Of a stretch of 39,296 nt of DNA, positions 2,165 through 10,983 are shown piece by piece; positions within the stretch are counted from its first letter, which is position 1; the number at the start of each line of letters is the position of its first letter. Under the pieces are notes generated by a model. It was not told the origin of the DNA and searched no databases. It saw only the letters and a program-made list of their open reading frames with translations. Source of the stretch: Chloroflexi bacterium GWC2_73_18 (GTDB taxonomy: Bacteria; Chloroflexota; Limnocylindria; Limnocylindrales; CSP1-4); assembly GCA_001794945.1 (NCBI GenBank), contig MGMJ01000053.1, positions 44,484 to 83,779 of the forward strand, read 5' to 3'. The translations under genes were made by a program, and so were the position numbers.

Positions 2165-3394
2165 GTGGTCGGCTCGACGACGCTGGACGCGAGGCCGCTC
2201 ACCCTCTTCGAGGAGCTCGCCCGGCGCGGCGTCTCGCGCCGGCGCTTCCTGCGGTTCTGCACTGCCATGGCGGCGACGCTCGCGCTGCCGGCGAGCTACG
2301 CGCCGCGAATCGCCCGTGCCCTGGAGACGAAGCCGAAACCGGTCGTCGTCTGGCGCGAGTTCCAGGATTGCACCGGCAACACCATGTCGATGCTGCGGTC
2401 GAGCCACCCCGACATCGCCGAGTTGGTCCTCGAGGCGGTCTCGCTCGAGTACCACGAGACGATCATGGCCGGCGCCGGCCGGGCCGCCGAGGAGGTCGTC
2501 GAACGCGTCCGGCGCGAGCACCGGGGCGACTACGTCGCCATCGTCGAGGGCGCCATCCCGATCGCCGAGGGCGGCATCTACTGCACCATCGGCGGCCGCA
2601 CCGCGCTCGACCTGGTCGGCGAGGTCTGCCGCGACGCGGCCTTGACGATCGCCATCGGCGCGTGCGCCTGGGACGGCGGCCTCGTCGCCCAGGGGCCGAC
2701 CGGCGCGGTCGGCGTCGACGCCGCGGTCCCCGGCCTGCCGGCGCTCATCAACCTGGGCGGCTGCCCACATAACGTCGCCAACACGGCGGCGGTCCTGGTC
2801 CACTACCTGACCTTCGGCGAGCCGCCAGCGCTCGATCGCTACAAGCGGCCCCTCTTCGCCTACGGGCACGTCGTCCACGACCAGTGCGAGCGGCGTGCCC
2901 ACTTCGACGCCGGTCGCTACGTCGAGGCGTGGGGGGACGAGGGCCACCGGAGGGGCTGGTGCCTCTACAAGATGGGCTGCAAGGGACCGCAGGCGACCTA
3001 CAACTGCCCGACCGTTCGCTGGAACGACGGGACGAGCTGGCCGGTCAAGGCGGGGCATGGCTGCATCGCCTGCGCGTCACCGGACTTCTGGGCGACGATG
3101 AGCCCCTTCTACGCGCGGCTCCCCGACGTGCACATGATCGGGGTCGACATCGACGCCCAGACGCTCGGGGTGGGGCTGGTCGGGGCGGTCGCCGGCCTCA
3201 CCGTCCTGCACGGGGCGGGGAAGGCGATCCAGCACCGGCGTGCGCGGCACCGGGCGACGCTCGACGCCGCCGGCCGGGTCGTGCCGGGCCCGCTCGAGCC
3301 GGGCCCGGTCGAACCGCCCGCGGAAACGCCCCCGACCGGGCCACCTGCCGAACCTCCTGCCGCGGAGCCGCCGGCCTGCGCCGGCCTGAGCTGA
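2165..3394 (+). CDS. [NiFe] hydrogenase small subunit, group 1 type, Tat-exported
   Basis: 409 residues. This subunit carries the Fe-S relay that moves electrons from the H2-oxidising site to a membrane cytochrome. The N terminus has a twin-arginine signal (SRRRFLRF, 24-31). It is followed by a core resembling HybO/HupS, including the phrase SLEYHE. Medial and distal cluster ligands are all visible in the HDQCERR, GWCLYKMGC, NCPTVRW and GHGCIAC motifs. Proximal ligands C69, C167 and C200 are present, but the fourth canonical Cys is Asn (N72 in CTGNT). A hydrophobic helix (about 325-350) follows as a membrane anchor, then a Pro-rich tail. The GTG start has GGAGGA upstream. The large subunit follows 10 bp downstream. 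Confidence 0.95.
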   Translation: MVGSTTLDARPLTLFEELARRGVSRRRFLRFCTAMAATLALPASYAPRIARALETKPKPVVVWREFQDCTGNTMSMLRSSHPDIAELVLEAVSLEYHETIMAGAGRAAEEVVERVRREHRGDYVAIVEGAIPIAEGGIYCTIGGRTALDLVGEVCRDAALTIAIGACAWDGGLVAQGPTGAVGVDAAVPGLPALINLGGCPHNVANTAAVLVHYLTFGEPPALDRYKRPLFAYGHVVHDQCERRAHFDAGRYVEAWGDEGHRRGWCLYKMGCKGPQATYNCPTVRWNDGTSWPVKAGHGCIACASPDFWATMSPFYARLPDVHMIGVDIDAQTLGVGLVGAVAGLTVLHGAGKAIQHRRARHRATLDAAGRVVPGPLEPGPVEPPAETPPTGPPAEPPAAEPPACAGLS

Positions 3395-3404
3395 GGGCAC
3401 CCCG

Positions 3405-5114
3405 ATGCCGAACGTCATCATCGATCCGGTCACGCGCATCGAAGGACACCTGCGCATCGAGGCGAAGGTGGAGGGCGGCCAGGTCGCGGAGGCCTGGTCG
3501 AGCGGCACGATGTTCCGCGGCATGGAGCTGATCCTGCGCGGCCGCGACCCGCGCGAGGCATGGATCTGGGCGCAGCGGATCTGCGGCGTCTGCACCACCG
3601 TCCACGCCCTCGCCTCGGTGCGCGCGGTCGAGGACGCGCTCCGGATCGAGATCCCGCCCAACGCCCGTCTCATCCGCAGCCTGATGGCGGGCGCGCAGCA
3701 GATCCAGGACCACGTCGTCCACTTCTACCACCTGCACGCGCTCGACTGGGTCGACGTGACGAGCGCGCTGCGCGCCGACCCGGCCGCCACCGCGCGCCTG
3801 GCGGCGAGCCTTTCGGACTGGCCGAAGTCGTCGGCCGGCTACTTCCGCCAGGTGCGCGAGCGCCTCGAGCGGGTGGTGGCGAGCGGCCAGCTCAGCCTCT
3901 TCGCCAGCGGCTACTGGGGCCACCCCGCCTACCGGCTGCCGCCCGAGGCGAACCTGCTGGCGGTCGCCCACTACCTGGAGGCGCTCGACTGGCAGCGCGA
4001 CGTCATCCGCGTCCACGCCGTCCTCGGCGGCAAGAACCCGCACCCGCAGACCTACCTGGTCGGCGGCATGGCGACGGCGATCGACCCCAACGAGCCGGAG
4101 GCGCTCAACCTGGAGCGGATCGGCTTCATCGCCGAGCGGATCCAGGCGATGCGTGCCTTCGTCGAGCAGGTCTACATCCCTGACGTCAAGGCGGTCGCCG
4201 GCTTCTACCCCGACTGGTTCGCCCTTGGCGCCGGGCATCGCAACTACCTCGCCTACGGCGGCCTGCCGCGCGGCAGCATCGGCGACCCGAGCACGTTCGA
4301 CTTCCCGCGCGGTATCGTCCTGGGCGGGGACCTCGCGACGGTCCACCCGCTCGACCAGGCGAGGATCACCGAGTCGATCGCGCGCTCCTACTACGACTAC
4401 AGCGGCGGCGACGCCGAAGTGCGCCACCCCTGGGACGGCGAGACGACGCCGCATTACACGGGCCCGACGCCGCCCTACACCGAGCTCCAGCGGGACGCCA
4501 AGTACTCCTGGCTCAAGGCGCCGCGCTACGAGGGGAAGGTGATGGAGGTCGGTCCCCTGGCCCGGATGCTGGTCGCCTATGCCGGTGGTGTGCCTCGCGT
4601 GCGCGAACTCGTCGACGGCGTCCTGCAGGACCTGGGCGCACAGCCCGCAGCGCTCCTCTCGACGCTCGGACGCGTCGCCGCCCGAGCGGTCGAGACCGCC
4701 TACCTGCTCGACCTGATGGACGGCTGGCTCGACGGGCTGGCGCACAACATGATGAGCGGCGACCTGCGGATCCACGACGGGAGTCGCTGGGAGCCGTCGA
4801 CCTGGCCGGCCGAGGCGGAGGGGTGGGGAGCGCACGAGGCGCCGCGCGGTTCGCTCGGCCACTGGGTCCGCATCGAGGCCGGCCGGATCGCCGGCTACCA
4901 GGCGATCGTGCCGAGCACCTGGAACGCCGGGCCGCGCGACGCCGCCGGCCAGCCCGGTCCCTTCGAGGCGGCGCTCGCCGGCACGCCGGTCGCGGAGCCG
5001 GAACGTCCCCTCGAGCTCCTGCGCACGATCCACAGCTTCGATCCCTGTGTCGCCTGCGCCGTCCACGTCGTCGATGCGCGGGGGCGCGAGCGGGTCCGCG
5101 TGGAGGTCGCCTGA
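3405..5114 (+). CDS. [NiFe] hydrogenase large (catalytic) subunit, group 1 type
   Basis: 569 residues. It binds the Ni-Fe(CN)2CO centre and splits H2; it is carried to the outer face of the membrane together with the Tat-signal small subunit. The four Ni ligands are C60 and C63 in RICGVC and C548 and C551 in DPCVACAVH. The chain continues 15 residues past His554 (starting VVDARG), which is the extension normally clipped by a maturation protease after Ni insertion; that protease is encoded at 8087-8608. The tail resembles E. coli HybC. Sequence around HFYHLHALDWVDV is typical of membrane-bound uptake hydrogenases. The stop is one base before the cytochrome b start, indicating tight translational coupling. 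Confidence 0.96.
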   Translation: MPNVIIDPVTRIEGHLRIEAKVEGGQVAEAWSSGTMFRGMELILRGRDPREAWIWAQRICGVCTTVHALASVRAVEDALRIEIPPNARLIRSLMAGAQQIQDHVVHFYHLHALDWVDVTSALRADPAATARLAASLSDWPKSSAGYFRQVRERLERVVASGQLSLFASGYWGHPAYRLPPEANLLAVAHYLEALDWQRDVIRVHAVLGGKNPHPQTYLVGGMATAIDPNEPEALNLERIGFIAERIQAMRAFVEQVYIPDVKAVAGFYPDWFALGAGHRNYLAYGGLPRGSIGDPSTFDFPRGIVLGGDLATVHPLDQARITESIARSYYDYSGGDAEVRHPWDGETTPHYTGPTPPYTELQRDAKYSWLKAPRYEGKVMEVGPLARMLVAYAGGVPRVRELVDGVLQDLGAQPAALLSTLGRVAARAVETAYLLDLMDGWLDGLAHNMMSGDLRIHDGSRWEPSTWPAEAEGWGAHEAPRGSLGHWVRIEAGRIAGYQAIVPSTWNAGPRDAAGQPGPFEAALAGTPVAEPERPLELLRTIHSFDPCVACAVHVVDARGRERVRVEVA

Positions 5115-5115
5115 G

Positions 5116-5823
5116 ATGGCCGAGCGGGTCCTCGGCGAGCGGGTCTACGTCTGGGAGCCGCTCGTCCGGGTCGTCCACTGGACGGTCGTCGTCTCGATGG
5201 TGGTGCTCACGATCACGGGGCTCTACATCCACGGGCCCTTCCTGAGCCCGGCCGCGGGGGACACCGCCGCGGCGCTGATGGCACAGGTCCGCTTCGTCCA
5301 CGAGCTCTTCGCCATCGTCTTCACCATCGCCGTCGGGCTGCGCGTCTACTGGGCCTTCGCCGGCAACGGGTACGCCTCCTGGCGGGCGCTGGTTCCGCAC
5401 ACGCGGCCGCAGTGGCGCAACCTCGCCGAGACGGGGCGCTTCTACGGTCTGCGCCGCCTGGAACCGCCGCCGGGGATGGGGCACAACGCGCTGGCGGCCG
5501 TCGCCTACCTCGTCGTCTACGCTGGCTTCGCCGGCCAGATCCTGACCGGCCTCCTCCTCTTCGGCTGGATCGCCGGGGTGGGACCGGTGCAGGCGCTCTT
5601 CGGCTGGATCGTCGGGTTCGTGCCGGGCGGCATCATGACCGTCCGCCTCCTGCACTACATCCTGACCTTCCTCTTCCTGGTCTTCACCGTCCACCACGTC
5701 TACAGCTCGGTGCTGACCGACCTGGTCGAGCGCAACGGCCTCCTCTCGAGTATCGTGACCGGCTGGAAGACCCGCTGGCTGGGCCACCCCGGCGAGGCCG
5801 CGGAGGACGACGTCGATGCATGA
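5116..5823 (+). CDS. Ni/Fe-hydrogenase b-type cytochrome subunit
   Basis: 235 residues of the HyaC/HupC/CybH family. It anchors the hydrogenase and passes electrons from the small subunit to the quinone pool through two b haems. Four hydrophobic helices lie at roughly 20-40, 60-82, 125-148 and 175-200. Candidate haem ligands fall where the family has them: H21 (VVHW), H62 (VHEL), H180 (LLHYI) and H193/H194 (VHHVY). An in-frame upstream GTG exists inside the large-subunit gene, but the ATG at 5116, right after the preceding stop, gives the expected N terminus (ERVYVWEPLVRVVHW). The 3' end overlaps hypA by 8 bp. Confidence 0.93.
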   Translation: MAERVLGERVYVWEPLVRVVHWTVVVSMVVLTITGLYIHGPFLSPAAGDTAAALMAQVRFVHELFAIVFTIAVGLRVYWAFAGNGYASWRALVPHTRPQWRNLAETGRFYGLRRLEPPPGMGHNALAAVAYLVVYAGFAGQILTGLLLFGWIAGVGPVQALFGWIVGFVPGGIMTVRLLHYILTFLFLVFTVHHVYSSVLTDLVERNGLLSSIVTGWKTRWLGHPGEAAEDDVDA

Positions 5824-6130
5824 GGCGGGCCTGATCGAGGCAGCCCTGGACGGCGCGCTGCGGAGGGCGTCCGCCCCGGCCGCGCTCGAGCTGCACATCA
5901 GCGACCCCGTGCGGGTCGGCGGCGAGGCGGCCCGGTTCCACCTCGAGCTGGCGCTGCGCGCCCGCGGGCTGGGTGAGCTGCCGGTCGAGCTCCGCATCGA
6001 TCCGGTCGACTGCCCCGCCTGCGCCGTCGCCGTCGTGCCCGACCCGGCTGCCCCCTTCTGTCCGGGGTGCGGCTGGCCGCTGCCGCGGCGCGACGGCCCG
6101 GGTCTCGAGATCCGGGCACGGAGGCGCTAG
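5816..6130 (+). CDS. hypA: Hydrogenase maturation nickel metallochaperone HypA
   Basis: 104 residues. HypA binds Ni(II) through its N terminus and, with HypB, loads it into the large subunit. The diagnostic N terminus Met-His-Glu (1-3) is intact. The structural zinc site is two CxxC pairs, C66/C69 (DCPAC) and C82/C85 (FCPGC). It overlaps the cytochrome gene by 8 bp and precedes hypC by 4 bp, so it is part of the hydrogenase operon. No hypB is in the window, so the GTPase partner must be encoded elsewhere. Confidence 0.92.
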   Translation: MHEAGLIEAALDGALRRASAPAALELHISDPVRVGGEAARFHLELALRARGLGELPVELRIDPVDCPACAVAVVPDPAAPFCPGCGWPLPRRDGPGLEIRARRR

Positions 6131-6134
6131 CCCC

Positions 6135-6389
6135 ATGTGCGTCTCGTTCCCGGCGCAGGTGGTGGCCGTCGACGCGGGCGGAGCGGCCGTCCTCAGCGAG
6201 GGCCGCACCCGCCGTGCCTCCACGCTCCTCTACCCGGGGATCGCCCCCGGGGAGTGGGTGATGGTCGCCGCCGGCACGATCGTGCAACGCCTCAGCGCCG
6301 AGGAGGCCGGCGAGATCCGCTCGGCGCTACTCGAGGCACTCCGTCTGGTCGAACGTGAGAAAGGAGTCGACGATGCCGCCCCGTCCTGA
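6135..6389 (+). CDS. hypC: HypC/HupF-family hydrogenase chaperone lacking the conserved His
   Basis: 84 residues. HypC normally works with HypD to carry the Fe(CN)2CO unit and deliver it to the large subunit. The ATG at 6135 gives the family N terminus Met-Cys (MCVSFP), where Cys2 is the iron ligand; an upstream in-frame start would bury this Cys. The small beta-barrel pattern is recognisable (QVVAVD, then PGEWVMVAAGT). Two differences stand out. The usual Pro-Gly after the Cys motif is Pro-Ala, and the VHxGF segment, whose His is the second iron ligand in E. coli HypC, reads VAAGT (Ala45). It overlaps the next gene by 17 bp. The family assignment is firm; whether it carries the iron unit alone is doubtful. 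Confidence 0.88.
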   Translation: MCVSFPAQVVAVDAGGAAVLSEGRTRRASTLLYPGIAPGEWVMVAAGTIVQRLSAEEAGEIRSALLEALRLVEREKGVDDAAPS

Positions 6390-7323
6390 GCAGGCAAGGC
6401 CGCGTCCCCCGCGAATCCCCGCCACCGCGGCCTGGGGTGTCGGGCTCGCCGTCGCCACCGCCCTCATCAGCGGCCTGGCGATCTACCTCAACGCCTTCGC
6501 CGTCAGGCAGGTCCCCGACGCGGCCGTTTACACGACGCTCAAGAACGGGGTGGCTGCGCTCGTCCTGATCGCGCTCGCCACCGGCGGGGCGCGCCTCGAT
6601 CGGCGCCCTCTCCGACCGCGGCAGTGGGGCGGGCTCCTCGTCCTGGGCGTCATCGGCGGCGGGATCCCGTTCCTCCTGTTCTTCAACGGGCTCGCCCAGG
6701 CGAGCGCGCCGAGCGCCGCCTTCATCCACAAGACGCTCTTCGTCTGGGTCGCCCTCCTCGCCGTCCCGTTCCTCGGCGAGCGGCTGGGCCGGGCGCAGGT
6801 GGCGGCCCTGGCGCTCCTGCTGGCCGGGCAGGCGATCGTGCTGCCGCCGGCCGGCCTCCGCTGGGGGAGCGGCGAGACGCTGATGGCCGCGGCCACGCTC
6901 CTGTGGGCGCTCGAGGTGATCGTGGCGAAGCGGCTGCTCGCCTCGGTTCCCTCCGGCATCGCCGCCGCCGCGCGGATGGGCTTCGGGCTCGTCTTCCTGG
7001 CCGGCTACCTGGCCGCCACCGGCCGGCTCGGCGCGCTCGTCGAGGTGAGCGCCGCCGGGTGGGCGTGGTCGGTCGTCACCGGCCTGATCCTGACCGGCTA
7101 CGTGGCCACCTGGTACGCCGCGCTGCAGCGCGCCCCGGCGAGCGTCGTGGCGAGCGTTCTCGTGGTGGGAGCCGTGGTGACCGCGGCGCTCCAGGCGGCG
7201 GGCTCCGGGACCGCCCCGCAGCCGGCGGTCGTCGGCGGCTACGTGCTGATCGCCGGCGCCGCGGCGATGGTCGGCTGGCTGGCCCTGCGGCGCCGGGCGG
7301 CCCGGGCCGCGGCGACCGCCTGA
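6373..7323 (+). CDS. DMT superfamily (EamA/RhaT) permease in hydrogenase operon
   Basis: 316 residues with about ten hydrophobic helices and two internal EamA-type repeats, as in drug/metabolite transporters. The first repeat includes AVYTTLKNGVAALVLIAL and PFLGERLG; the second includes ASVVASVLVVGAVVTAAL. I chose the ATG at 6373 because AAAGGAG precedes it by about seven bases; a GTG at 6355 is also in frame. The start lies inside hypC (17-bp overlap), so translation is coupled to hydrogenase maturation genes, and the next gene follows after 20 bp. The substrate cannot be read from sequence: a metal, a metabolite for cofactor assembly, or an unrelated function are all open. Confidence 0.88.
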   Translation: MPPRPEQARPRPPRIPATAAWGVGLAVATALISGLAIYLNAFAVRQVPDAAVYTTLKNGVAALVLIALATGGARLDRRPLRPRQWGGLLVLGVIGGGIPFLLFFNGLAQASAPSAAFIHKTLFVWVALLAVPFLGERLGRAQVAALALLLAGQAIVLPPAGLRWGSGETLMAAATLLWALEVIVAKRLLASVPSGIAAAARMGFGLVFLAGYLAATGRLGALVEVSAAGWAWSVVTGLILTGYVATWYAALQRAPASVVASVLVVGAVVTAALQAAGSGTAPQPAVVGGYVLIAGAAAMVGWLALRRRAARAAATA

Positions 7324-7343: not shown

Positions 7344-8090
7344 ATGCCGGACGGCCGCGTCCCCGGGCCGGTCCTCTTCGCCCGCTACGCCTTCGGGCCC
7401 AACCGGCTCGGCTACTGCGGACCCGACGACGCGCGCGGGCTCCTCGATGCCGCCGTGGCGGGGGACGACGGCGACCTGCGCCAGCTGGCGCAGGGCTTCG
7501 AGGGCGCCTACCCGTATCTCGATCTGATCGCCCGCGCCAACGGGATCGCCGACCCGCTCGACGCCACCGTGGTGGAGGCGTACTGGCTCGGCAACGAGCT
7601 GCTCCGTCGCGTTCCCGCGGCGGCGCTCCACGACTCGCTCGGGGAGCGTTTCCGCCCGCGCCTCCGCCCCGAGGGCTGGCGCTGGCTCGCCACCAAGGCG
7701 CCGGCCGGGGCGCACCCGGTCCACGCCTTCCACGTCTTCGACGTCTTCCCGCGGCTCGGGTTGATGCGGAGTGGCGCCCTCGACGGGGCGCTCGGGGTGA
7801 TGGACGCCTGCCGGATCCGCTGGGGCGAGGTCCGCTCGGTCGAGGGCGAGCGCCTGCTCGTCGATGTGGCGCCGCTCACCCTCGTCGAGGGGAAGATGCG
7901 CCTCGGGGAGCGGCGGCCCGAGCTGGTGCAGCGCTGGCTCGACGGGACCGGCTTCGTCGACGGCGTGGCCGCTGGCGACGTCGTCTCGATCCACTGGGGC
8001 TGGGCCTGCGACCGCCTTGACGCACGGCGGCTCCGCAACCTGGCGGCCTGGACGACGCGCCAGCTCCGCCTCGCCAACCGGACGGTGTGA
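7344..8090 (+). CDS. DUF6390-like hydrogenase-associated protein with HypC-like C-terminal domain
   Basis: 248 residues. The N-terminal part (1-150) has LFARYAFGPNRLGYCGPDD, FEGAYPYLDLIARANGI and AFHVFDVFPRLG, which I recognise as a hydrogenase-linked family of unknown function (DUF6390, recalled without a search). The C-terminal part (153-248) reproduces the HypC layout: C156 followed five residues later by G161, then EVRSVEG and VDV, and later GDVVSIHWGWA with H217. C156 and H217 align with HypC Cys2 and His51, the iron-unit ligands. The gene sits between the permease and the maturation protease, overlapping the latter by 4 bp. I infer a role in building or inserting the active-site iron group. 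The family is fairly sure; the HypC relationship is my reading from pattern alone. Confidence 0.8.
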   Translation: MPDGRVPGPVLFARYAFGPNRLGYCGPDDARGLLDAAVAGDDGDLRQLAQGFEGAYPYLDLIARANGIADPLDATVVEAYWLGNELLRRVPAAALHDSLGERFRPRLRPEGWRWLATKAPAGAHPVHAFHVFDVFPRLGLMRSGALDGALGVMDACRIRWGEVRSVEGERLLVDVAPLTLVEGKMRLGERRPELVQRWLDGTGFVDGVAAGDVVSIHWGWACDRLDARRLRNLAAWTTRQLRLANRTV

Positions 8091-8608
8091 GGGTGGCCGA
8101 CCGCCGGCCGCGCTACGCCGTCCTCGGGTTGGGCAACCGGCTGCAGGGCGACGAGGCGCTCGGCGCCATGGTCGTGGAACGCCTGCGGGCCGAGCCGCCG
8201 GACGCCGGCCCCGGGTCGCTGGAGCTGATCGACGGCGGCACGGTCGGGCTCGGCCTCCTGCCGTACGTCGCCGGCCTCGACGGCCTGGTCGTCGTCGACG
8301 CGATCGAGGCGGGGCGCGCGCCGGGCACGCGGATCGACCTGGACGGGCGGCGGCTGGTGCGCCACGGGACGGCGATGGGCGTCCACGACCTGGGGGCCCG
8401 CGAGCTGCTCGGGGCGCTCCTGGTCACCGGCGCCCTACCGCGCCGCGTCCGGGTCGTCGGCGCGCAGCCCGCGTCGCTCGCGCTGGGGACCGACCTGAGC
8501 GCGGCCGTCGCCGCCGCGCTCCCCGGCGTCTGCCGGGCGATCCGGCGCCGCGTCGGCGCCTGGGCGGCGGCCGATGCGGCCCGCGCGGGAGGGCGGCGCG
8601 CCGCCTGA
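8087..8608 (+). CDS. Hydrogenase maturation endopeptidase (HybD/HyaD/HupD family)
   Basis: 173 residues. This protease removes the C-terminal extension of the large subunit once Ni is bound. Family motifs are clear: GLGNRLQGDEALG contains the metal-sensing Glu, VVVDAIE the Asp, and MGVHDLG the His. The GTG at 8087 overlaps the previous stop (GTGA); a GTG at 8093 would also keep the fold. Its likely substrate is the 15-residue tail of the large subunit at 5069-5111. It is the last gene of the hydrogenase operon. Confidence 0.9.
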   Translation: MRVADRRPRYAVLGLGNRLQGDEALGAMVVERLRAEPPDAGPGSLELIDGGTVGLGLLPYVAGLDGLVVVDAIEAGRAPGTRIDLDGRRLVRHGTAMGVHDLGARELLGALLVTGALPRRVRVVGAQPASLALGTDLSAAVAAALPGVCRAIRRRVGAWAAADAARAGGRRAA

Positions 8609-8725: not shown

Positions 8726-9073
8726 ATGGACGCCATCGACGTGCTCCAGGCCGAGGTGCTAAAGGCGCTCTCCAGCCCCCGCCGCCTGGAGATCATCCAC
8801 CGCCTGGCCGATGGACCGCTCGAGGTGGGCCGGCTCGCCGAGGAGCTCGGGATCAGCCAGCCGAACGTCTCGCAGCACCTCTCGGTCCTCCGTGCCGCCG
8901 GTCTCGTGGAAGCCGAGCGGCGCGGCCGGGACGTCCGCTACGCCATCACCGACCCCGATGTCCTCGTCGCCTGCGAGCTGATGCGCCGCGTCCTGCGGCG
9001 CCGGCTCACCCGGCTCGCCGACCTGACCGACGAGCCGGTCGAGACGACTGGGGCCGCCACCGTCACCGCCTGA
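8726..9073 (+). CDS. ArsR-family winged-helix transcriptional regulator
   Basis: 115 residues. The winged helix-turn-helix is clear: LKALSSPRRLEIIHRL, then LAEELGISQPNVSQHLSVLR as recognition region, then the wing RRGRDVRYAI. It heads a module with DsrE-like, TusA and sulfide:quinone-reductase-like genes, so it probably controls a response to sulfide or persulfide. Known persulfide sensors of this family (BigR/SqrR) use two cysteines. This protein has only one, C83, near the dimerisation helix, and it has no CxC metal site. The signal is therefore uncertain. A palindromic operator lies directly upstream. Confidence 0.9.
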   Translation: MDAIDVLQAEVLKALSSPRRLEIIHRLADGPLEVGRLAEELGISQPNVSQHLSVLRAAGLVEAERRGRDVRYAITDPDVLVACELMRRVLRRRLTRLADLTDEPVETTGAATVTA

Positions 9074-9083
9074 GGAGCCCTCC

Positions 9084-9497
9084 ATGGAAGAACGCCTCGC
9101 CCTGGTCCTCTTCTCCGGGACCGATGACAAGCTCCAGGCCGCCGCCGTGCTGACGGCCGGCGCCGCGGCGCTCGGCCGACCGGTCCACATCTTCCTGCAG
9201 TACTGGGCGCTCGATGCCTTCCGCGCCGACCGGATCGCCGGGGACCACGGCCTCGCCCCCGAGGCGGGCGCCGAGGGCCGCGCCGCGGTCGACGCGCTGG
9301 CGAAGGCCGGCCAGGCGAGCTGGGCCGAGACGCTCCGCCAGGCCAAGGAGCTGGGCGACGTCCGGATCGAGGCCTGCTCGCTCTCGATGGACCTGCTCGA
9401 CCTCGAACCGTCCGACCTCGATCCGCTCGTCGACGGCGTGGAGGGCGTCACCGCCTTCTGGGTGAACGCGGGCGAGGGGCAGGTCGTCTTCATCTGA
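9084..9497 (+). CDS. DsrE/DsrF-like sulfur relay family protein
   Basis: 137 residues of the DsrE-like family, whose members bind or pass persulfide sulfur. The N terminus (RLALVLFSGTDDKLQAA) matches the family's beta-alpha start. A single conserved-type cysteine, C98 in IEACSLSMDLL, sits where related proteins carry the reactive Cys. The ATG follows the repressor by 10 bp with GGAG upstream. Its neighbour TusA is the usual partner in sulfur transfer, so it probably accepts sulfur from or donates it to TusA. Confidence 0.85.
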   Translation: MEERLALVLFSGTDDKLQAAAVLTAGAAALGRPVHIFLQYWALDAFRADRIAGDHGLAPEAGAEGRAAVDALAKAGQASWAETLRQAKELGDVRIEACSLSMDLLDLEPSDLDPLVDGVEGVTAFWVNAGEGQVVFI

Positions 9498-9560: not shown

Positions 9561-9812
9561 ATGACCGAAACGACGACCGAGCCGACGATCACCCGCACCA
9601 TCGACGCGCGGGGCAGCTTCTGCCCCGGCCCCCTGATGGAGCTGATCCGGGCGATCCGCGAGGGGCAGGTCGGCGACGTGATCGCCGTCCGCTCGAGCGA
9701 CCGGGGCTCGAAGGTGGATATCCCCAAGTGGGTCGAGAAAGCCGGCCACCGGCTGATCGGCGCCTTCGAGCGCGAGGGCTACGACGAGTTGGTCGTGGAG
9801 AAGCGCCGCTAG
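9561..9812 (+). CDS. tusA: TusA-family sulfur carrier protein
   Basis: 83 residues. TusA proteins carry sulfur as a persulfide on the first Cys of a CPxP motif. Here it is C21 in DARGSFCPGPLMEL. The later segment GDVIAVRSSDRGSKVDIPKW and a C-terminal strand complete the small alpha/beta fold. A strong AAAGGAAGG site precedes the ATG. It lies between the DsrE-like and flavoprotein genes, which points to oxidative sulfur metabolism rather than tRNA thiolation. Confidence 0.93.
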   Translation: MTETTTEPTITRTIDARGSFCPGPLMELIRAIREGQVGDVIAVRSSDRGSKVDIPKWVEKAGHRLIGAFEREGYDELVVEKRR

Positions 9813-9828: not shown

Positions 9829-10983
9829 GTGCAGCGGATCCTCATCCTCGGTGGCGGCGTCGGCGGGACGCTCACCGCCAACCTGCTGGCGAAGAAGCTG
9901 CGCGGTCCGATCGAGAGCCGTGACGTCAGCGTCACGGTGGTCGACCAGACCGGGCAGCACACTTACCAGCCCGGCTTCATGTACATCGCCATGGGCCACG
10001 AGCGGGCCGAGCGTCTCCAGCGGCCCGAGCGCTCCCTCCTCGACCGCCGGGTCGAGCTGGTCGTCGGCGCCGCCTCGCGCATCGACGAGGCGGCGCGCAC
10101 GGTCACCCTCGAGGACGGCCGCCGCCTCCCCTACGATCACCTGGTGCTGGCGACCGGCTCGCGGATCGTGCCCGAGGAGATCCCCTTCTTCGACCAGGAA
10201 GCCCACCACTTCTACACCGCCGAGGCGGCGCTCCGTCTCCGCCGGGCGCTCGACGCCTTCACCGGCGGAAAGGTCGTCATCGGCATCGCCGGCATGCCCT
10301 ACAAGTGCCCGCCGGCGCCGCTCGAGGTCGCCTTCCTCATCGAGGCCGAGCTGCGGGAGCGCGGGCTGCGCGGGCGCTCGGAGGTCCACTTCTGCTCGCC
10401 GATCGGGCGTGCCTTCACCATCGAGACGGTGAGCGAGATGGCGACGCCGATCCTGGAGCAGAAGGGGATCGAGCTGCACACCTTCGTCAACATCGAGACG
10501 ATCGACCCCGAGCGCAGGGTGGTGCAGAGCCTCGAGGGCGAGGAGTTCGCCTACGACCTGCTCGTGCTCGTGCCGCCGCATAGGGGCGCCAGGGTCGTCA
10601 TCGACAGCGGCCTCGCGCCGCCGTCCGGCTGGCTCCCCACCGACCAGCACACCCTCCAGGTCGGCGGGCGGCCGAACGTCTACGCCATCGGCGACGCGAC
10701 CGACCTGCCGATCTCCAAGGCCGGCTCGACGGCCCACTTCGAGGCTCCGGTCGTGGCCGAGCGGATCGCCGCCTCGGTCCGCGGCCGCGAACCCGACGCG
10801 AAGGCCGGCAACTACCAGGGCAAGGTCGTCTGCTTCTTCGAGATCGGGGACGGGAAGGGGACGCTCCTCCGCTTCGACTACCTGAACCCGCCGCATCCCC
10901 CGAAGCCGAACCGCATCTGGCACCTCGGCAAGATCGTCTTCAACAAGACCTACTGGTTCACCGTCCCGAAGGGTCGCGTCTAG
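9829..10983 (+). CDS. Sulfide:quinone oxidoreductase-like FAD flavoprotein
   Basis: 384 residues. Enzymes of this family oxidise sulfide to zero-valent sulfur and pass electrons to quinone (or cytochrome) at the membrane. The N terminus has the FAD-binding ILGGGVGGTLTAN; LVLATGSR and VYAIGDATDL are the second and third nucleotide motifs. Two redox cysteines are where the family has them: C160 (GMPYKCPPAP) and C335 (GKVVCFFE). The third cysteine found in many SQRs, near residue 125, is absent, as in some SQR types and in flavocytochrome c sulfide dehydrogenase. The GTG start has GGAG about 10 bases upstream. It ends the sulfur operon. Confidence 0.88.
   Translation: MQRILILGGGVGGTLTANLLAKKLRGPIESRDVSVTVVDQTGQHTYQPGFMYIAMGHERAERLQRPERSLLDRRVELVVGAASRIDEAARTVTLEDGRRLPYDHLVLATGSRIVPEEIPFFDQEAHHFYTAEAALRLRRALDAFTGGKVVIGIAGMPYKCPPAPLEVAFLIEAELRERGLRGRSEVHFCSPIGRAFTIETVSEMATPILEQKGIELHTFVNIETIDPERRVVQSLEGEEFAYDLLVLVPPHRGARVVIDSGLAPPSGWLPTDQHTLQVGGRPNVYAIGDATDLPISKAGSTAHFEAPVVAERIAASVRGREPDAKAGNYQGKVVCFFEIGDGKGTLLRFDYLNPPHPPKPNRIWHLGKIVFNKTYWFTVPKGRV

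Follow-up and report, generated by a model that had tools for sequence, protein, structure and literature searches.

The window is a stretch of 39,296 nucleotides from the genome of Chloroflexi bacterium GWC2_73_18. It carries a [NiFe]-hydrogenase operon in which the gene for a DUF6390 protein lies directly before the maturation protease gene:

2165..3394, + strand: hydrogenase small subunit with a Tat signal (TIGR00391, E 1.5e-117; TAT_signal_seq)
3405..5114, + strand: [NiFe]-hydrogenase large subunit with the motifs RICGVC, DPCVAC, APRG and VPSTWN (PF00374, E 1e-226)
5047..5823, + strand: cytochrome b561 subunit (PF01292, E 4e-28)
5816..6130, + strand: divergent hypA-like gene with an MHE start and two CxxC motifs (PF01155, E 0.0049, under the cut-off)
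6135..6389, + strand: hypC, with Cys2 kept and Ala at the His51 position, VMVAAGTIV (PF01455, E 2.3e-15)
6355..7323, + strand: EamA-type transporter between hypC and the DUF6390 gene (PF00892, E 2.4e-24)
7344..8090, + strand: DUF6390 protein, 248 residues (open reading frame and translation; PF19927, E 1.8e-82)
7344..7784, + strand: N-terminal all-helical domain of DUF6390, about residues 1-147 (AF2 model)
7416-7418, + strand: invariant C25 in the N-terminal domain
7722-7724, + strand: invariant H127 in the N-terminal domain
7785..8087, + strand: C-terminal HypC-like OB-barrel domain, about residues 148-248 (hhalign, model and PDB matches)
7809..7811, + strand: codon of C156, invariant in 43/43 homologues and aligned with HypC Cys2
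7992..7994, + strand: codon of H217, invariant in 43/43 homologues and aligned with HypC His51
8007..8009, + strand: codon of C222, a near-invariant Cys (41/43) in HWxWxCD
8087..8608, + strand: hydrogenase maturation protease, overlapping the DUF6390 stop codon (TIGR00072, E 3.7e-32)

The hypC gene of this operon encodes the only HypC that a search found in its own genome. After the operon follow genes for an ArsR-type regulator (8726-9073) and a DsrE-like protein (9084-9497), both recognized by Pfam, and then genes for a TusA-like protein (9561-9812) and a sulfide:quinone reductase-like protein (9829-10983), as judged by eye.

DUF6390 (PF19927) is an uncharacterised Pfam family without an assigned function, and a search of open papers found none that deals with it. 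The protein of the window is a full-length member, matching the family model with 277 bits against a cut-off of 25 over positions 4-240 of 244. In HypC, Cys2 and His51 hold the iron unit Fe(CN)2CO. The original prediction, made from the sequence of the window, was that the C-terminal part of the DUF6390 protein has the layout of HypC, with C156 and H217 in the places of these two ligands. The translation has C156, G161, EVRSVEG, VDV and GDVVSIHWGWA with H217 where they had been placed. The conservation of C156 and H217, on which the prediction hinged, is complete in a set of 43 DUF6390 homologues from Chloroflexota and Actinomycetota (43/43), where they are among just 18 invariant alignment columns; C25, H127 and W218 are likewise invariant.

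Comparisons of single sequences with Pfam models give only a weak signal. The window protein matches the HypC model (PF01455) with an E value of 0.17 and 12.5 bits against a gathering cut-off of 28.5, and the window's own HypC matches the DUF6390 model with an E value of 0.23. Across the family, 11 of the 43 members match Pfam HypC (best E 0.0037), and no second family recurs. The signal is stronger when profiles are used. The three top matches of the DUF6390 profile among 177,635 PDB sequences are HypC chains (E 0.047-0.36), and a profile of the C-terminal domain alone reaches HypC with an E value of 0.0014. With hhalign, DUF6390 aligns with 21 canonical HypC proteins at a probability of 82% (E 1e-5). 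A wider HypC alignment was made of rows with a domain E <1e-15 plus one more, all of them HypC by position and start; its rows were picked from the matches of an iterated HypC-locating model that may contain DUF6390 rows and that was itself kept out of the homology claim. Against this wider alignment the C-terminal domain reaches a probability of 96.6% (E 5.8e-10), C156 being aligned with Cys2 and H217 with His51, and the full-length profile scores 53.0, compared with at most 18.6 against 100 column-shuffled versions of that HypC alignment.

The predicted structure points the same way. For the whole protein the AlphaFold model reaches a pLDDT of 87.9 and a pTM of 0.89, and for the isolated C-terminal domain a pLDDT of 94.3. 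When the isolated domain was compared by Foldseek with 350,542 PDB chains, HypC 2z1c came first (probability 1.00, TM 0.65 by target length, E 3.2e-3), followed in fifth place by E. coli HypC 2ot2; most of the other matches are generic OB folds, S17 for example. The full-length model gave only generic OB-fold matches in the top 50, none with an E value <1e-3, so that the isolated domain was needed for HypC to reach the top of the list. Chance similarity to HypC was rejected on the invariance of the two residues, the profile scores against shuffled controls and the PDB profile search. Because of the profile homology and the predicted fold, the HypC-type domain of DUF6390 is judged to be real. 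The fold comparison and the profile comparison with HypC that had been suggested for the prediction thus both came out in its favor, as did the idea of a fused, internal HypC-type domain, which is consistent with the layout, the fold and the retention of both ligand positions.

DUF6390 shares with the HypC/HybG/HupF proteins (PF01455) an OB-type barrel, a Cys heading strand 1, a C-terminal helix, a GDxVxxHxG/WxA block that contains the His, and the setting in a hydrogenase operon. It is nevertheless not a plain HypC. A helical domain of about 147 residues, for which no relative was detected, precedes the barrel, and the Cys is internal, whereas that of HypC is exposed at the N terminus by removal of Met. 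This difference, to which attention had been drawn from the start, is a true one, C156 being placed where a predicted helix ends. The Cys and His blocks are separated by about 17 more residues than in HypC; the places of the motifs stand as described, and the overall spacing differs from that of HypC. Furthermore, DUF6390 has HWxWxCD where HypC has HVGFA, scores under the HypC gathering cut-off and occurs beside a separate HypC. The N-terminal domain was considered as a relative of HypD, HypE, HypF or the hydrogenase large subunit, and this was rejected since the hhalign scores lie within or about the shuffled range. For HypD the probability is <1%, inside that range, and for the large subunit it is 0.1%, under the shuffled maximum; the HypD, HypE and HypF alignments used are small (5, 4 and 2 sequences).

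The distribution of DUF6390 was determined in 400 evenly sampled Chloroflexota genomes, of which 35 encode DUF6390, 195 HypC and 162 HypD. All 35 DUF6390 genomes contain HypC, and in 33 of them the coordinates place it no more than about 2 kb from DUF6390. Profile searches found HypD in 0/35 of these genomes, and neither HypE nor HypF was found above the curated cut-off in any of the 35. Their weak HypE matches reach as far as expected of other AIR-synthase-like proteins, and their weak HypF matches are confined to single domains (the acylphosphatase, YrdC or Kae1 regions). Among the HypC-bearing Chloroflexota, HypD is present in 0/35 genomes with DUF6390 and in 156/160 without it (p 1.5e-34, uncorrected for kinship). 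Within single families (f1, f13, f22, f44 and f46) some members have DUF6390 and others HypD, and the pattern is therefore not that of one lineage. HypD and HypF were also not found in three Acidimicrobiia and three further Chloroflexota/Thermomicrobiales DUF6390 records, one of which (L034) duplicates the contig of G285, already counted among the 35. Four HypC-bearing Chloroflexota bins (G011, G053, G244 and G258) have neither HypD nor DUF6390.

The pattern is different in the Actinomycetia. Streptomyces, Antrihabitans and one Pseudonocardiales genome have DUF6390 together with HypD and HypF, and in a second Pseudonocardiales genome (L042) HypF is present and HypD was not found. Every HypD-bearing row of the DUF6390 family tree belongs to the Actinomycetia. 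As the two coexist there, DUF6390 is not purely a substitute.

The missing HypD, HypE and HypF might be present and have been overlooked through incomplete bins or failing models. Most of the 35 genomes are indeed metagenome bins that are 80-95% complete. An artefact of this kind is nonetheless extremely improbable: the count of 0/35 includes a genome that is 99% complete in two contigs (G347), and HypD is detected by these models in 162 Chloroflexota genomes, some of which belong to the same families. HypF was matched in 7/7 Actinomycetia tested (E <1e-210), showing that the HypF search works.

The HypC proteins that accompany DUF6390 are themselves unusual. In the 35 Chloroflexota genomes Cys2 of HypC is kept in all, and His51 is lost in 23, where it is replaced by A, G, D, Y, F, N or Q. 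By contrast, both residues are present in 40/40 HypC proteins from HypD-bearing genomes. These 40 consist of 21 plus 19, the 19 being taken from lower-scoring matches to lessen bias; a twentieth such sequence was left out of the count since it comes from G011. DUF6390 always keeps both ligand positions, unlike the HypC in those 23 genomes. In E. coli HypCD, exchange of the His led to loss of activity and cofactor (PMC12134894). With HypD, HypE and HypF absent and His51 often lost from the neighboring HypC, DUF6390 becomes a candidate to stand in for part of the usual maturation pathway rather than an extra carrier. The original prediction had taken the protein for a fused, internal version of the iron-unit carrier or for a receptor for it on the large subunit; the HypC-type domain agrees with the first of these.

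The hydrogenases encoded at DUF6390 loci appear ordinary in their active-site residues. Their large subunits span several hydrogenase groups, and the complete ones have both CxxC pairs. They include group 1h-type enzymes, a class that scavenges atmospheric H2. The Cys ligands, the xRG arginine and the P-S/T motif are identical to those of large subunits from HypD-bearing genomes, with which overall identity is up to 82% (L141 against L174) and, for the window protein, 71% (against L176). The arginine and the P-S/T motif line the cyanide ligands. As these active-site motifs are unchanged, a normal NiFe(CN)2CO site is expected from the sequences, which makes the lack of a cyanide route a real puzzle: to our knowledge, HypE and HypF are the only such route. 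A clear hydrogenase was recognized in about 20 of the 35 genomes (PF00374 E <1e-30 plus neighborhoods), a figure that is blurred by cross-matches to NuoD, rests on the best three candidates per genome and is not a hydrogenase census of the phylum.

The absence of HypE and HypF might also mean that the hydrogenases of genomes with DUF6390 only have no normal NiFe(CN)2CO site and are inactive or use other iron ligands, DUF6390 serving that purpose. This is very unlikely in view of the close identity of the large subunits to enzymes from HypD genomes, the same ligand and cyanide-pocket motifs in several hydrogenase groups, and the conservation of the genes across many families.

In five loci (L036, L149, L156, L159 and L160) a CooC-like ATPase gene, recognized by eye, lies near the small subunit gene, and the hydrogenases there carry RACGVCGGVH/DPCMPCTTH motifs. 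The large-subunit gene of L159 (4137-5512) is split in the assembly into two pieces without CxxC motifs; it may be broken, or the split may come from a sequencing error.

The HypC homology with both ligands, the linkage to hypC and hydrogenase genes and the distribution complementary to that of HypD, taken with the absence of HypE and HypF above cut-off, the loss of His51 from HypC and the unchanged active-site residues of the hydrogenases, lead us to propose that DUF6390 acts in maturation by handling the iron unit and, together with HypC, replaces the HypD scaffold where HypD, HypE and HypF have been lost. The position of the DUF6390 gene immediately after hypC, hypD and hypE in Streptomyces and the lack of any other unknown gene common to the loci also favor it. 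We regard the chances of this proposal as evenly balanced. DUF6390 would be a two-domain [NiFe]-hydrogenase maturation factor in which C156 and H217 of the HypC-type barrel bind the iron unit in the manner of Cys2 and His51 of HypC, and in which the N-terminal helical domain, with its invariant C25 and H127, may give further ligands or a docking face. In the Chloroflexota and Acidimicrobiia that lack HypD, HypE and HypF, DUF6390 would take the place of HypD as the partner of HypC. HypC, reduced to Cys2 only in most lineages, and DUF6390 would assemble or carry the iron unit and then pass it on to the large subunit. We infer the iron binding by C156 and H217, the partnership with HypC and the hand-over to the large subunit. 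HypD is the [4Fe-4S] scaffold with which HypC works, and DUF6390 resembles it in the proposed role as partner of HypC and in the complementary distribution in Chloroflexota; it differs in having no detectable sequence relation to HypD and no sign of an iron-sulfur cluster. The four HypC-bearing Chloroflexota genomes with neither HypD nor DUF6390 count against the replacement, as do the coexistence of DUF6390 with HypD in some Actinomycetia, the internal position of the Cys, the prevalence of bins among the genomes and the recognition of a clear hydrogenase in about 20 rather than all 35 of them.

The HypC-like barrel might instead only dock the large-subunit precursor. DUF6390 would then be a folding or docking chaperone or a nickel-insertion factor, and C156 and H217 would hold no iron unit. 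HypC proteins do bind large-subunit precursors (PMC12134894), the DUF6390 gene adjoins the protease gene in the window, and HypA at DUF6390 loci can be divergent. However, C156 and H217, precisely the ligand positions, show no change in 43/43 homologues while the HypC of the same operon loses His51, and we consider such a role unlikely.

The coexistence of DUF6390 with HypD, HypE and HypF in Actinomycetia raises the possibility that it is a relay, which may have sufficed once these three proteins were lost and replaced by other enzymes. In the Actinomycetia the DUF6390 gene sits within the hyp operon, the order in Streptomyces being protease, hypC/hypF, hypC, hypD, hypE and then DUF6390. DUF6390 would in this case be a second, dedicated carrier downstream of the usual pathway that passes the finished Fe(CN)2CO to the large subunit, and in genomes without HypD, HypE and HypF other enzymes would make the unit. 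A downstream relay role has been proposed for HoxL, HoxV and HupF. The HoxV/HupK and HoxL/HupF proteins of O2-tolerant membrane hydrogenases are, like DUF6390, extra iron-unit handling proteins beside HypC, and the HypC-type ligand residues and the place beside hypD and hypE in Streptomyces would suit a relay. HoxV/HupK, however, resemble the large subunit and DUF6390 does not, and the HoxV/HupK and HoxL/HupF systems keep HypD, HypE and HypF, unlike the genomes with DUF6390 only. A relay also leaves unexplained the very exact match between the presence of DUF6390 and the lack of HypD, and we consider this role rather doubtful.

Returning to the replacement of HypD, a protein of 248 residues that is unlike HypD, HypE and HypF is unlikely to do the work of all three. 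As DUF6390 occurs in Chloroflexota only where these proteins are missing, an undescribed route to the iron-cyanide core is possible. Somewhat more tentatively than the role of DUF6390 itself, we suggest that the DUF6390-bearing Chloroflexota and Acidimicrobiia build the iron-cyanide-carbonyl core without HypD, HypE or HypF, on a scaffold of DUF6390 and HypC and with an undescribed source of cyanide. No description of hydrogenase maturation free of HypD, HypE and HypF was found in the open papers searched. Genomes without these proteins that have unchanged hydrogenase motifs and DUF6390 point to an alternative means of building or handling the cofactor, for which DUF6390 is a named gene to test, and a smaller maturation set would help the heterologous production of hydrogenases.

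A shared neighbor of DUF6390 was considered as the missing cyanide enzyme and rejected, because a comparison of neighbor clusters showed no other unknown gene common to the DUF6390 loci. Transporter genes, of the EamA type or of iron-type and SBP_bac_5-type ABC systems, are found repeatedly, but at some of these loci only. An EamA-type transporter gene (cluster c15) adjoins DUF6390 in the window and in L034, L143, L153, L155 and L160. A three-gene ABC transporter set, iron-type by resemblance, with an SBP_bac_6/11-type binding protein, a permease and an ATPase, lies directly downstream of DUF6390 in L037, L148, L149, L150 and L156; at L150, the second DUF6390 copy of G111, this set is present and no hydrogenase gene was seen nearby. 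Genes for a peptide/nickel-type ABC binding protein (SBP_bac_5) and a permease are found near DUF6390 in L144, L145, L150 and L159.
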